This document shows, piece by piece, positions 23,673 through 34,076 of a stretch of DNA of 64,000 nt (the stretch's first letter is position 1; each line of letters starts with the position of its first letter). The position numbers were made by a program, and so were the translations under genes. The notes under the pieces are model-generated. The model saw only the letters and a program-made list of their open reading frames with translations, made no database searches and was not told the origin of the DNA. Source of the DNA: Prevotellaceae bacterium MN60 (GTDB lineage: Bacteria > Bacteroidota > Bacteroidia > Bacteroidales > Bacteroidaceae). Where the stretch lies: positions 124,001-188,000 of the forward strand of contig FZQZ01000002.1 in NCBI GenBank assembly GCA_900199555.1. Reading direction: 5' to 3'.

Positions 23673-24920
23673 CTACTTGTACCCCCAGAATGTGCCCATG
23701 AAACAATAATTGCCAAACGGATCTTCGATAATATAGGCAAAAGGATGGTCAGCATAAAAGTAGGCTTCTGTGGGATTCATCTTTTCACTTAGCGTTACAA
23801 AAGAAGTTGACGTAATGGTTCCTGCCCTCGTCCCGTCTTCGTCTAAGATGACTTTGGTATTCTGCATAATATTGCCAATCTTCATGGGGGCAGACTGAAC
23901 TCCAGCCAGCTCGGCAGAATTGCTGAATAGCTTACTGATACCTAACGCTGCAAGATACTCACGGGCTTTATATGAATACGACACTTCGAACTTGGGTAAC
24001 TTGACATGGACAATATCATAGGTATTTAACATGAATATAGCATTTCTAAGTTTCTCTCCATCAAGAGATTTGAGTACTGTCTGCAGACCATCCTTCTTCT
24101 CTGGAAGAATAACGTAGAGCGTATAATCTCCTACATAGGGGATGCTGAGCAAAGAGAAATCCTTCAGGGCTGCATAAGTGAACACCTTCTCCTTATTCGT
24201 TTTGTTCATCATGTCTACCGTCTCACTCGTTCCGTTATAGAAAGGCTCTTTCTTCGTGTATCCTTTATAAAACTCATGAACCCACCTACCATTAAAGAGG
24301 TTAGCCACCAGCAGGTTGGCAGATTGAGAATCCCATTGTGCAATGGGGAAACTACTGATGATTCCCTCTGTACGTTCATAACACCATCTGTCAATGTTCT
24401 GCTGCATTTTGTCATTCATATCGCCTTTGACAACACGTGCAAAATAGTATTGCTCCAGCATATCCTGAAAAGATTTGTTAATATCCACAGAACTACCTGC
24501 CAGGAACAAAGCAGCTGTCCTCATATATGAAGAAGGACCTAAGAAATCGTCTTCCGACACTTCCGCCTGTCTAAGTATCAGTCTGCGACAAAACGCATTG
24601 ACACGCCTGATGTCAGTCGTGTCAACACCCAAGGCATCACATATCTCTTGTCGTGTAGCGCCTGATACCGTATTATTAATAATGTTTAAGGAATAGAACA
24701 TGCCAATAGTTGAAATGAACACGTTCTTGTTCTGTTCATTCTCAGCAATCTCTTGGAACAACTTCAGCGAAAAATCGTTCCCTTTACGTATAAGTCTTTT
24801 CTCTTCTTGACGACTCATGTCTGTTTCATCAGAAGCAGACTCTTGGGGACTACTTTTGCATCCCATTGGTAGAATGACCATACAGATGGCCAAGAAAAAA
24901 ATAATCATTCTATTTTTCAT
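23673..24920 (-). CDS. Lipoprotein serpin (protease inhibitor)
   Basis: 415 residues. A signal peptide with lipobox LPMGC anchors it to a membrane. The rest covers a full serpin fold, ending in the conserved HPFAYIIEDPFGNYCFMG strand. The reactive-centre loop reads DEDGTRAGTITSTSFVTLS. Counting from the hinge Gly as P15, P1 is Leu, which suggests targets of the chymotrypsin or elastase type. The hinge (Gly-Thr-Arg-Ala-Gly) keeps small residues, so it is probably inhibitory, although Arg at P13 is unusual. The Bacteroidetes serpin miropin is a known relative. It may protect the cell surface against host or its own proteases. Confidence 0.93.
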   Translation of the reverse strand: MKNRMIIFFLAICMVILPMGCKSSPQESASDETDMSRQEEKRLIRKGNDFSLKLFQEIAENEQNKNVFISTIGMFYSLNIINNTVSGATRQEICDALGVDTTDIRRVNAFCRRLILRQAEVSEDDFLGPSSYMRTAALFLAGSSVDINKSFQDMLEQYYFARVVKGDMNDKMQQNIDRWCYERTEGIISSFPIAQWDSQSANLLVANLFNGRWVHEFYKGYTKKEPFYNGTSETVDMMNKTNKEKVFTYAALKDFSLLSIPYVGDYTLYVILPEKKDGLQTVLKSLDGEKLRNAIFMLNTYDIVHVKLPKFEVSYSYKAREYLAALGISKLFSNSAELAGVQSAPMKIGNIMQNTKVILDEDGTRAGTITSTSFVTLSEKMNPTEAYFYADHPFAYIIEDPFGNYCFMGTFWGYK

Positions 24921-25023
24921 CTTTCATACTTTATATAGAACAGAACTGTCAGCTGTCTGTCATTTGTACCCTGAGAGATTCCAAGGAAACAGGTCAATAA
25001 CAATAACTGTGTTTATGCCTCTG

Positions 25024-25031
25024 CAAAGATA
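25024..25031 (-). promoter_or_regulatory. -7 element of the serpin gene
   Basis: TATCTTTG on the minus strand, 103 bp from the ATG, giving a leader of about 95 nt. Confidence 0.6.
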
Positions 25032-25070
25032 ATATTTTTTTATCAATACAAAAGAAAAAGAGAGAAAAGA

Positions 25071-25102
25071 TTTGAAGGTTAAGAAAAAACTTTCTTCCTT
25101 TG
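25071..25102 (+). promoter_or_regulatory. Promoter of the predicted small RNA
   Basis: TTTG (25071-25074), exactly 20 bp, TTCCTTTG (25095-25102). One mismatch to TAnnTTTG. No plus-strand gene follows. Confidence 0.5.
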
Positions 25103-25106
25103 CATC

Positions 25107-25242
25107 ATGAAAGTAACCTATCTATGTTTAAGCCCCCGATTGGTTCGGCAAGCTAATAGATAGAAGCACTTTTAAGCTCCGTTTAAGACAAGAGCCCCAT
25201 TTGAATCGGCAAGCGACTTGTTAAAACGGAGTTCATTTTTTT
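25107..25242 (+). ncRNA. Predicted small RNA with two related hairpins
   Basis: Hairpin I (25118-25163) has the stem CTATCTAT/ATAGATAG. Hairpin II (25175-25233) has the stem AGCTCCGTTT/AAAACGGAGTT, then seven T at 25236-25242. The stems differ, but both enclose a shared core: CCCC, a small WTTGRW loop element, then TCGGCAAGC. An inner pair changes from A-T in copy I to T-A in copy II. Together with a promoter at 25071 and a terminator-like end, this suggests a 136-nt transcript. I match it to no known RNA family. Confidence 0.55.
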
Positions 25243-25284
25243 CTGAAGATGTCAGAGAATAGGCCGAAAGTATCTTCGACGAAC

Positions 25285-25878
25285 TCAAAGTCCGATACTA
25301 TACGATAGCGATAGATAGAGTTGGGCTATCAAGAGATAGAAAAGAAGGAGCGGAGCACCCTGACGTATGCCATGAAGCAATGCCTCGTAGATGTCGCTTA
25401 TTGTGTTATAATAGCCTGCAATGATGCCATAGAAGGCACTAAGGATAATAACACAGAAGGTAAGCAGAGGAAGCAGAGCATGGGAGAATGGTGAGGGCCA
25501 CAAACTGCCTGTAACAGAAAGCATGACGGCATGGGGGAAAGCTGCTAGCGAGAGCAGCATAACGAGTGCAACCACTGAGAGAACAAGTGTCATGGCTCGT
25601 GCTCGCTTTTCGCGATAAGTGGATTGGTAATTGAGCATTCCACTACGACGGAAGACTCCATAAGCTAACATCAACAATAACAGCGATAGCAGAATGGGCG
25701 TAGCGAGCATATGGCTGAAACGTCCAAAGAACCAGCGTAGCCCTTCACTGGAGAGCAAAGAGCGAATACCACTGACGGGGAAGGCTGCACTAAGCAACCA
25801 CGACACAAGCATTGTCAGCAACTGAGCACCAAACAGCGTGAGGGCAATATGTGGAAGAAACCTTTTTACGTTGAACAT
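25285..25878 (-). CDS. AbgT-like short membrane protein
   Basis: 197 residues, about five hydrophobic segments. Part of it (SLLSSEGLRWFFGRF, then small-residue-rich helix and RRSGML) resembles the region of AbgT transporters where p-aminobenzoyl-glutamate carriers have a similar motif. It is far shorter than a full AbgT (about 500 residues), so it is either a fragment that became stable or a distinct small family. Its ATG lies inside heptamer array A4. It ends the RR-HK group, 65 bp after the response regulator. Confidence 0.65.
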   Translation of the reverse strand: MFNVKRFLPHIALTLFGAQLLTMLVSWLLSAAFPVSGIRSLLSSEGLRWFFGRFSHMLATPILLSLLLLMLAYGVFRRSGMLNYQSTYREKRARAMTLVLSVVALVMLLSLAAFPHAVMLSVTGSLWPSPFSHALLPLLTFCVIILSAFYGIIAGYYNTISDIYEALLHGIRQGAPLLLFYLLIAQLYLSLSYSIGL

Positions 25879-25937
25879 TGAACGTTAATCATTGACCATT
25901 GAACATTGACCATTATGCATTAAGCATTATGAATTAT
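25868..25937. repeat. Heptamer array A4 (ten units) providing a start codon
   Basis: Ten 7-bp units: ACGTTGA, ACATTGA, ACGTTAA, TCATTGA, CCATTGA, ACATTGA, CCATTAT, GCATTAA, GCATTAT, GAATTAT. On the minus strand several units carry ATG, and one of these starts the AbgT-like gene. Confidence 0.88.
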
Positions 25938-25943
25938 AAATCG

Positions 25944-26660
25944 TTATTCCATATCGGGTTCGAGATTGTCAATATCGAGAATGCGTAACTCGAAGGCGCG
26001 AACGACGAGGCGAGTGGCATTGACACTCTCACCATTGGGGAAGAGCTTCTTGACGAGTTCCATCTGTCGCTTCTCTAAACTCTTCACACCAAAGGGCATG
26101 CCACGAAGACCGGTAATCTGCTCCTTGGTAAAACCGAGAGCAAGATGACGCAAGAAACGCTCATCGTACTCGTCGATTTCATAGTTGATGAGTGCCTCCT
26201 GGCGAGCAAGTTGTGAAGAAACAGCGTGTTTGAAGCGCTCTACAATCTTTTGCAGGATAGGCTCATTAAAGACAAGTTGTTTACCCTCCATCACTGCCAA
26301 CACATCGCGACGTGTAAGGAGTTCGCCACTCTTCAGAATGATACCGTCGGCACCAGCATCAAGTACATCAACCCATAGTTTCTCATTGAGTATCTCACCC
26401 GTAAAGATGAGTATCTTTACTTGTTTATATAGTTCTTTTGTCTGGCGACAAATCTCCACACCTACTGTGGTAGAGCCACCAAGACCGAGGTCAAGCAGTA
26501 CAAGGTCGGGCTGTTGCTGCTTGATGAGTTTCCAATAGCTACTCTCGTTGGCAGCAGTACCAATCACTTCGGCCTCGGGAATCTCATTGCGAATGATACC
26601 TTCGGTGCCTTTGAGTTCGAGGGGTACATCCTCGACGATAATCAGTTTAAAGTTTTCCAT
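25944..26660 (-). CDS. Response regulator with C-terminal helix-turn-helix-like domain
   Basis: 238 residues. The receiver domain (1-125) has the acidic pair near 10-11, phospho-acceptor Asp57 (LLDLG), Thr in IFTG and Lys in ILKSG, so it should be active. The C-terminal part (about 165-238) with GFTKEQITGLRGM and SLEKRQMELVKKLF looks like a LuxR-type DNA-binding helix-turn-helix. Its ATG overlaps the stop of the large histidine kinase by 14 bp, so it is the likely partner. Confidence 0.88.
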   Translation of the reverse strand: MENFKLIIVEDVPLELKGTEGIIRNEIPEAEVIGTAANESSYWKLIKQQQPDLVLLDLGLGGSTTVGVEICRQTKELYKQVKILIFTGEILNEKLWVDVLDAGADGIILKSGELLTRRDVLAVMEGKQLVFNEPILQKIVERFKHAVSSQLARQEALINYEIDEYDERFLRHLALGFTKEQITGLRGMPFGVKSLEKRQMELVKKLFPNGESVNATRLVVRAFELRILDIDNLEPDME

Positions 26661-33880: not shown

Positions 33881-33957
33881 TGGCGGTGCGTACGAGACTC
33901 GAACTCGTGACCTCCTGCGTGACAGGCAGGCATTCTAACCAACTGAACTAACGCACC
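33881..33957 (-). tRNA. tRNA-Asp (GTC), copy 2
   Basis: 77 nt with encoded CCA. Acceptor stem GGTGCGT/ACGCACC, discriminator G, anticodon GTC within CCTGTCACG and T-loop GTTCGAGTC. Identical to the copy at 34000-34076. Confidence 0.98.
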
Positions 33958-33999: not shown

Positions 34000-34076
34000 T
34001 GGCGGTGCGTACGAGACTCGAACTCGTGACCTCCTGCGTGACAGGCAGGCATTCTAACCAACTGAACTAACGCACC
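34000..34076 (-). tRNA. tRNA-Asp (GTC), copy 1
   Basis: 77 nt with encoded CCA, same sequence as the other copy, 42 bp upstream of it in transcription order. The seven bases 3' to each gene (AGAATCG on the minus strand) are also identical, which points to recent duplication or conversion. Confidence 0.98.

Follow-up and report, generated by a model that had tools for sequence, protein, structure and literature searches.

A conserved two-hairpin RNA of Prevotella, likely an orphan antidote to a predicted LPD3-like RNase

The window, a 64,000-nucleotide stretch of contig FZQZ01000002.1 (positions 124,001 to 188,000) from Prevotellaceae bacterium MN60, encodes a real and strongly conserved two-hairpin RNA. 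In relatives, the RNA is adjoined by a gene for a protein of about 145 aa, located on the opposite strand in a tail-to-tail arrangement. It appears rather probable that the two form a mobile module akin to a type III toxin-antitoxin system in which the RNA binds and silences a predicted RNase. The window, where only the RNA is left, likely retains an orphan antidote to such an RNase.

As envisaged, an RNA of about 135 nt would be transcribed from its own promoter and would fold into two hairpins (the type B variant described below has a single core hairpin), each presenting a conserved internal-loop core. The tail-to-tail gene would encode a stand-alone LPD3-like protein, a predicted BECR RNase, to which the core hairpins would bind, blocking its predicted activity. 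Should the RNA be lost or diluted, the protein would be freed. The binding, RNase activity, toxicity and a role against phages are what we infer.

The RNA and its distribution

The layout of the element is presented in Table 1. The initial annotation had described two hairpins with a common core and a terminal T7 run, all of which are present: the MFE fold (-45.3 kcal/mol, z = -3.13), for which an equally good fold was obtained in 1 of 200 shuffles, contains both hairpins, and each holds the core GCCCC...TCGGCAAGC by pattern match. The RNA was correctly placed between a serpin (PF00079, E = 5.3e-67) on one side and a membrane gene, a 197-aa ORF with a match to an AbgT transporter (E = 5.6e-8), on the other. 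Both are on the minus strand, in agreement with the claim that no gene follows on the strand of the RNA. A riboswitch, which had also been considered, was rejected since the RNA ends in its own terminator, convergent genes come next, and no same-strand gene lies downstream. A short intergenic repeat is located nearby (25868–25944), pieces of which, approximately 30–75 nt long, occur in many copies in the same genome and in relatives.

Table 1. Features of the RNA element in the window.
Feature	Position	Strand	Basis
TTTG, -33-like element of a Bacteroidetes-type promoter	25071..25074	+	sequence; comparably spaced TTTGGAAG-like stretch in relatives (by eye)
TTCCTTTG, -7-like element	25095..25102	+	sequence; TATCTTTGCA in many relatives
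Predicted transcription start	near 25108	+	sequence
Hairpin 1 of the RNA	25108..25174	+	MFE fold; covarying stems in relatives
Core 1, GCCCCCGATTGGTTCGGCAAGC	25132..25153	+	exact pattern match; near-invariant across the RNA family
Hairpin 2, also the terminator stem	25175..25233	+	MFE fold; two-sided changes in 6 pairs of helix 5
Core 2, GCCCCATTTGAATCGGCAAGC	25194..25214	+	exact pattern match
T7 run, end of the RNA	25236..25242	+	sequence
Stretch that holds the convergent LPD3-like gene in relatives; no trace here	25243..25700	-	tblastn, unfiltered hmmsearch

The consensus-spaced promoter of the initial annotation was retained in part. The TTTG and TTCCTTTG elements match the pattern taken here to be the Bacteroidetes -33/-7 consensus, and promoter-like elements recur at the same place in relatives, as judged by eye. 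A promoter of the sigma-70 type was rejected because none of the four such sites found in 24000–26500 is located at the RNA.

Matches to the core pattern were identified in 34 of 299 genomes of the genus; those in four of the 34 (G100, G242, G258, G088) were inside coding sequence and were dropped before the counts were made. Two of 295 genomes of the order (G564, G643) also matched; their matches fall entirely within open frames (423 and 408 aa) and were set aside. A DNA search of 60 relatives found the type A RNA, which is the type of the window, in five, all of the same genus. The covariance-model search that the initial annotation had proposed was performed with 24 of the 25 tandem loci (L061, with a spacing of 51, was excluded). 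Within the genus, to which this search was confined, the model had matches in 43 of 398 genomes at E ≤ 0.01. A known Rfam family was rejected since nothing reached threshold at the RNA; four weak matches in the region were all far under their thresholds, and the window's two matches are tRNAs. Two tandem tRNA genes with equal scores lie on the minus strand at 33884–33957 and 34003–34076.

The aligned copies have a common plan composed of promoter-like elements, hairpin 1 with core 1, and hairpin 2 with core 2, the latter hairpin being the terminator. For the 24 tandem copies, RNAalifold produced 34 base pairs of which 16 have two-sided changes. Pairing was observed in 98.1% of 804 pair cells versus 27–39% in controls where the partner was slid, and the covariation score was 0.375 versus a shuffled mean of 0.204; the number of further pair types (33) was not above that of the shuffles (35.1). 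The pairing and covariation in relatives lend strong support to the earlier suggestion of an RNA structure under selection. The covariation is evident across genomes and not within the window alone. An inner pair said to change from A-T to T-A between the two hairpins did not survive: the pair is mostly G-C or A-U in relatives, and in hairpin 2 of the window it is an A opposite a C.

At most loci that lack type A, a second RNA was found. This RNA, type B, has the core GAGTAGC-CCGTAATCGGGT-AGCAAATC. Type A contains two cores, type B contains one, and a hybrid contains one of each. The type A model detected 17 of 19 type B copies, weakly and at the right place (E = 0.004–0.57). At one locus (L191, 2027–2209, minus strand) and also at L270, a type A hairpin is followed by a type B hairpin and a short T run; no LPD3-like gene was found beside this hybrid. 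Since the type A model sees type B and since the hybrid exists, types A and B are probably variants of one motif. A search for the type B core in a phylum-wide sample had matches in 0 of 395 genomes.

The LPD3-like protein

The protein encoded beside the RNA in relatives was compared to Pfam LPD3 (PF18798), and 10 of 11 members matched at E ≤ 1 with a best score of 25.1 bits that is under the gathering cut-off of 27. A search of solved structures by sequence had 0 matches at E ≤ 5. AlphaFold models were then used for one Prevotella member and one phage member (mean pLDDT = 89.5 each). Foldseek alone identified no match in the PDB at E ≤ 0.001. With VIA, the best rows for the two models were colicin D (Z = 5.4 and 5.1) and a contact-dependent-inhibition chain (Z = 4.8 and 5.5), other top rows being BrnT (5.4), HigB, and RelE. 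Judged by their titles, nearly all of the best 22 and best 27 rows were colicin D, contact-dependent-inhibition, HigB, RelE, YafQ, MqsR, BrnT, ParE, and Cami1 structures with Z values of 3.3–5.5, and unrelated folds were present just below them. No MazF/Kid-like row was among the VIA rows listed, which carries no weight against that or any other unlisted family.

Rows of the colicin D/HigB/RelE/BrnT type are presumably of the BECR fold. The BECR-fold toxins among them resemble the protein in its predicted fold and differ in being silenced by proteins, in contrast to the RNA proposed here. The fold consists of an N-terminal helix with four or five strands, according to the accessible part of PMC5512222. 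The top rows are coherent for both models, each Z value being modest (approximately 5) and weak when taken singly. Since the two models agree, the LPD3-like protein is predicted to adopt a BECR (colicin D/RelE-like) RNase fold. In 40 Prevotella sequences, Lys93, His94, Arg116, Lys125, and Tyr127 are invariant among others, and these five are also invariant when the phage members are included.

A search of BFVD gave phage polyvalent proteins as the best matches, several of them named LPD3 (best E = 1.5e-4; best named LPD3, 3.9e-4). In the accessible part of PMC5512222, LPD3 is a domain of phage and conjugative polyvalent proteins, the functions of LPD domains are called elusive, and an RNA beside LPD3 is not mentioned. 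The likeness to LPD3 consists of the weak sequence match and these structural neighbors, whereas here the protein stands alone and is tied to an RNA.

Linkage of the gene to the RNA

A search of named genomes with the protein only identified 76 loci, all from Prevotella, Prevotellaceae, Xylanibacter, Bacteroidaceae, or Bacteroidales, and many from the ruminant gut as judged by their titles. In most of them, the RNA core begins approximately 10–55 nt past the matched end of the protein. In most of 40 loci inspected by eye, the gene is preceded by its own TAnnTTTG-like element. Tail-to-tail pairs are known from type I systems, and the RNA could in principle act in a similar manner, as an antisense RNA that anneals to the convergent mRNA at its 3′ end, blocking or destabilizing it. 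The 3′ ends of the convergent RNA and gene do partly overlap, and in one subgroup the last codons (GTPL-stop), as read from the sequence, are inside the terminator stem. However, in another subgroup (ELRK-stop) the stop precedes the stem, hairpin 1 and its core are outside the gene, the conserved part is the core common to both hairpins and not the overlap, and orphan RNAs retain the core. An antisense role is therefore considered unlikely.

When the type A RNA was taken as the starting point, 52 matches were obtained, beside which the gene was intact in 25 and broken in 12. The 34 RNAs of at least 100 bits are accompanied by 25 intact genes and five broken ones with none found for four, versus no intact gene, seven broken genes, and none found for 11 among the 18 RNAs below 100 bits, where "none" denotes no tblastn match at E ≤ 1e-3, a limit that short stubs can escape. 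The association of score class with gene state has a Fisher value of 1.2e-7 across rows that are related by descent. Among the 18 low-scoring RNAs, one is cut by the contig start (G220) and another has 145 bases left on its contig (G284); the weakest type A matches (28–33 bits) may be chance. For type B, 25 matches in 23 of 398 genomes had an intact gene in eight cases, a broken one in six, and no detectable gene, by the same tblastn limit, in 11. Since many RNAs are orphan, as are these 11, the RNA may serve some independent purpose.

A predicted RNase that is linked to a repeated RNA motif might also form a non-toxic ribonucleoprotein in which the RNA is a substrate or guide, for processing or RNA-directed cleavage, and not an antidote. 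According to the accessible part of PMC5086642, ToxN is believed to cleave its tandem antitoxin as well. This role is quite unlikely, since many RNAs occur without the gene and the alignments show no obvious variable stretch that could act as a guide.

The reverse count, from the protein to the RNA, returns to the proposed antidote. The protein is intact at 56 of the 76 loci, meaning that it covers more than 90% of a query without a stop; N-terminal losses of the L034 type (14 residues at L099/G034) and a changed C-terminus (L109/G250:C47) pass as intact. An intact RNA is present at 55 of these 56 loci (42 of type A with at least 100 bits and 13 of type B by core). The sole exception, L098, has 13 unmatched C-terminal residues and is 138 nt from the contig end; together with L148 and L152, it has neither type of RNA. 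A full RNA is still found with 13 of the 20 broken proteins (intact versus broken, Fisher 2.4e-4, with rows related by descent). For this count, a 49-residue gap led to the reclassification of L142 from intact to broken, and two viral loci (L153, L155) were left out. The RNA-first and protein-first counts have loci in common, and their rows share ancestry.

The RNA often occurs without the protein, and an intact protein hardly ever occurs without the RNA, as an antidote predicts. That the gene is lost first is to be expected in part from the sizes of gene and RNA (approximately 450 versus 140 nt). As another explanation, the RNA may be an independent small RNA of Prevotella, such as a protein sponge or regulator, to which the gene is merely a frequent neighbor. 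Orphan copies, including the one in the window, would be compatible with this; however, intact genes lie directly beside an RNA in 55 of 56 cases despite differing flanks, and the copies on viral contigs, with 49–55% protein likeness, also have the RNA, making an independent RNA very improbable. The protein sponge of the initial annotation pointed in the right direction with respect to protein binding. The likely partner of the RNA, however, is no global regulator but the RNase-like protein whose gene converges on it in relatives.

The window copy was examined as a potential orphan. A protein search of its own genome had 0 matches (without a positive control), and no remnant was identified beside the RNA by tblastn (E ≤ 1e-3) or an unfiltered hmmsearch. 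A minus-strand reading near 25243–25310 was rejected as a protein remnant because the unfiltered hmmsearch was empty. Given a score of 143 bits with the covariance model, the promoter, hairpins, and terminator of the RNA look intact. It is the absence of a detected gene in the genome, combined with a seemingly intact RNA, that leads to the term orphan antidote. The same genome contains a second, decayed copy of the promoter and hairpin 1 (G000:C9:36415-36562).

The RNA and the gene move as a unit, independent of genomic place. By blastn (E ≤ 1e-5), the module is common to 590 of 780 locus pairs, and the flanks are common to 5 of 630 and 11 of 741. A search for empty sites at the module ends, made with match lists only, identified no clean junction. 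The protein is under purifying selection with a median dN/dS of 0.078 (21 of 780 pairs with 0.1 < dS < 2). The flanking genes are often restriction-modification or other defense genes. PADLOC families matched by flanking ORFs numbered 287 versus 39 for control regions (E ≤ 1e-10; best 25 of each listed), these being counts of families and not of proteins. The input was 150 of 174 flanking ORFs, drawn from 38 of 40 loci, together with 130 of 132 control ORFs from 28 control stretches. A Pfam scan, which covered the flanking ORFs, included AlwI, DpnII, and HaeIII endonucleases and several methylases among the families listed. It is highly improbable that the hairpins are DNA recognition sites at the ends of a transposon, as the initial annotation had allowed: the module does occupy many unrelated places, yet the structure of the RNA has been conserved, the two hairpins lie on the same side of the gene, the stem covariation with G-U pairs, the promoter, and the terminator indicate an RNA, almost nothing is common to the flanks, and 1 of 150 flanking ORFs matched a DDE transposase (best 25 of 98 families listed).

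Known systems and phage relatives

The nearest analogue of the proposed module is RCd22/AbiF of Clostridioides difficile. From the accessible part of PMC12373285, RCd22 is 132 nt long, contains its motif twice, and neutralizes the toxin by direct binding. The likeness extends to an RNA of about 130 nt with two copies of a short motif and its own promoter and terminator, beside an RNase-like gene, and to a link with phages. In that system, AbiF is HEPN-like and the RNA is upstream in the same direction, whereas the protein here has a BECR-like predicted fold and its gene converges on the RNA. The abiF motif (RF03085) had no match at the gathering score in the window or four loci and none at E ≤ 5 in 24950–25290 of the window.

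The type III systems ToxIN, CptIN, TenpIN, and AbiQ are operons of RNA, terminator, and toxin with a single promoter, a MazF/Kid-like toxin, and pseudoknotted repeats, as described in the accessible part of PMC5086642. The module has in common with them a small structured RNA with repeats, an endoribonuclease partner (here predicted), movability, and a neighborhood of defense genes. An RNA made of repeats of one motif is found in type A with its two cores; type B has one. In contrast to the single operon, the gene here is encoded opposite the RNA and has a promoter-like element to itself, its product has a BECR-like model, and the hairpins have internal loops. Since the gene order, predicted fold, and RNA differ, the module is proposed to act like a type III system and is not claimed as one.

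In the accessible literature on type III systems, abiF and structured RNAs, Prevotella RNAs (PMC8040213), and LPD3 (PMC5512222, PMC10910872), with subscription journals mostly outside its scope, the RNA and the module are undescribed. If the proposed module is real, RNA antidotes can control toxins with the fold of RelE and colicin D, and such an antidote need not share the operon of its toxin. The phage domain LPD3, of unknown function, would acquire both a predicted activity and a natural inhibitor. As a compact off-switch for an RNase, the RNA would be a useful tool, and the purpose of a class of orphan structured RNAs in Prevotella would become testable.

Three viral contigs, two of which have the same proteins, carry a relative of the protein with 49–55% identity. 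In one of them (L155), only the last 84 residues were matched, in a frame of 90 aa. A type B RNA is convergent to the viral genes; its outer stem is changed and its core is unchanged. Terminase genes follow in L153 and L155, and L153 also has a portal gene and a sub-threshold MuF-like gene. A phage collection and a plasmid collection had no matches. In a protein tree of 42 rows, types A and B are on opposite sides of a branch with a support of 92/93. A tentative reading is that a phage-derived LPD3/BECR RNase is neutralized by the convergently encoded RNA with its conserved core hairpins, and that free-standing RNAs, such as those in the window or beside a relaxase-like or IS21-like gene, are kept as portable antidotes that would shield a cell or mobile element from the RNase of others.

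Several further observations were made on the phage and type B copies. The phage RNA of L153 (2460–2661, minus strand) may extend further, with additional structure ahead of its type B hairpin. In the same contig (755–2467), the LPD3-like protein and a neighboring HELAH (zincin-like) protein share the N-terminus MGR(Q/N)AGGV, which is perhaps a packaging signal. At L260 and L262 (approximately 1501–1530), a type B core, flanked by a markedly different outer stem, is convergent to a gene that is presumed from its sequence to be relaxase-like; the last 291 residues of this frame had no LPD3-like match. At L280 (approximately 1501–1529), a type B core with another compensated stem is located just upstream of what is taken, from its sequence, to be an IS21-like transposase gene.
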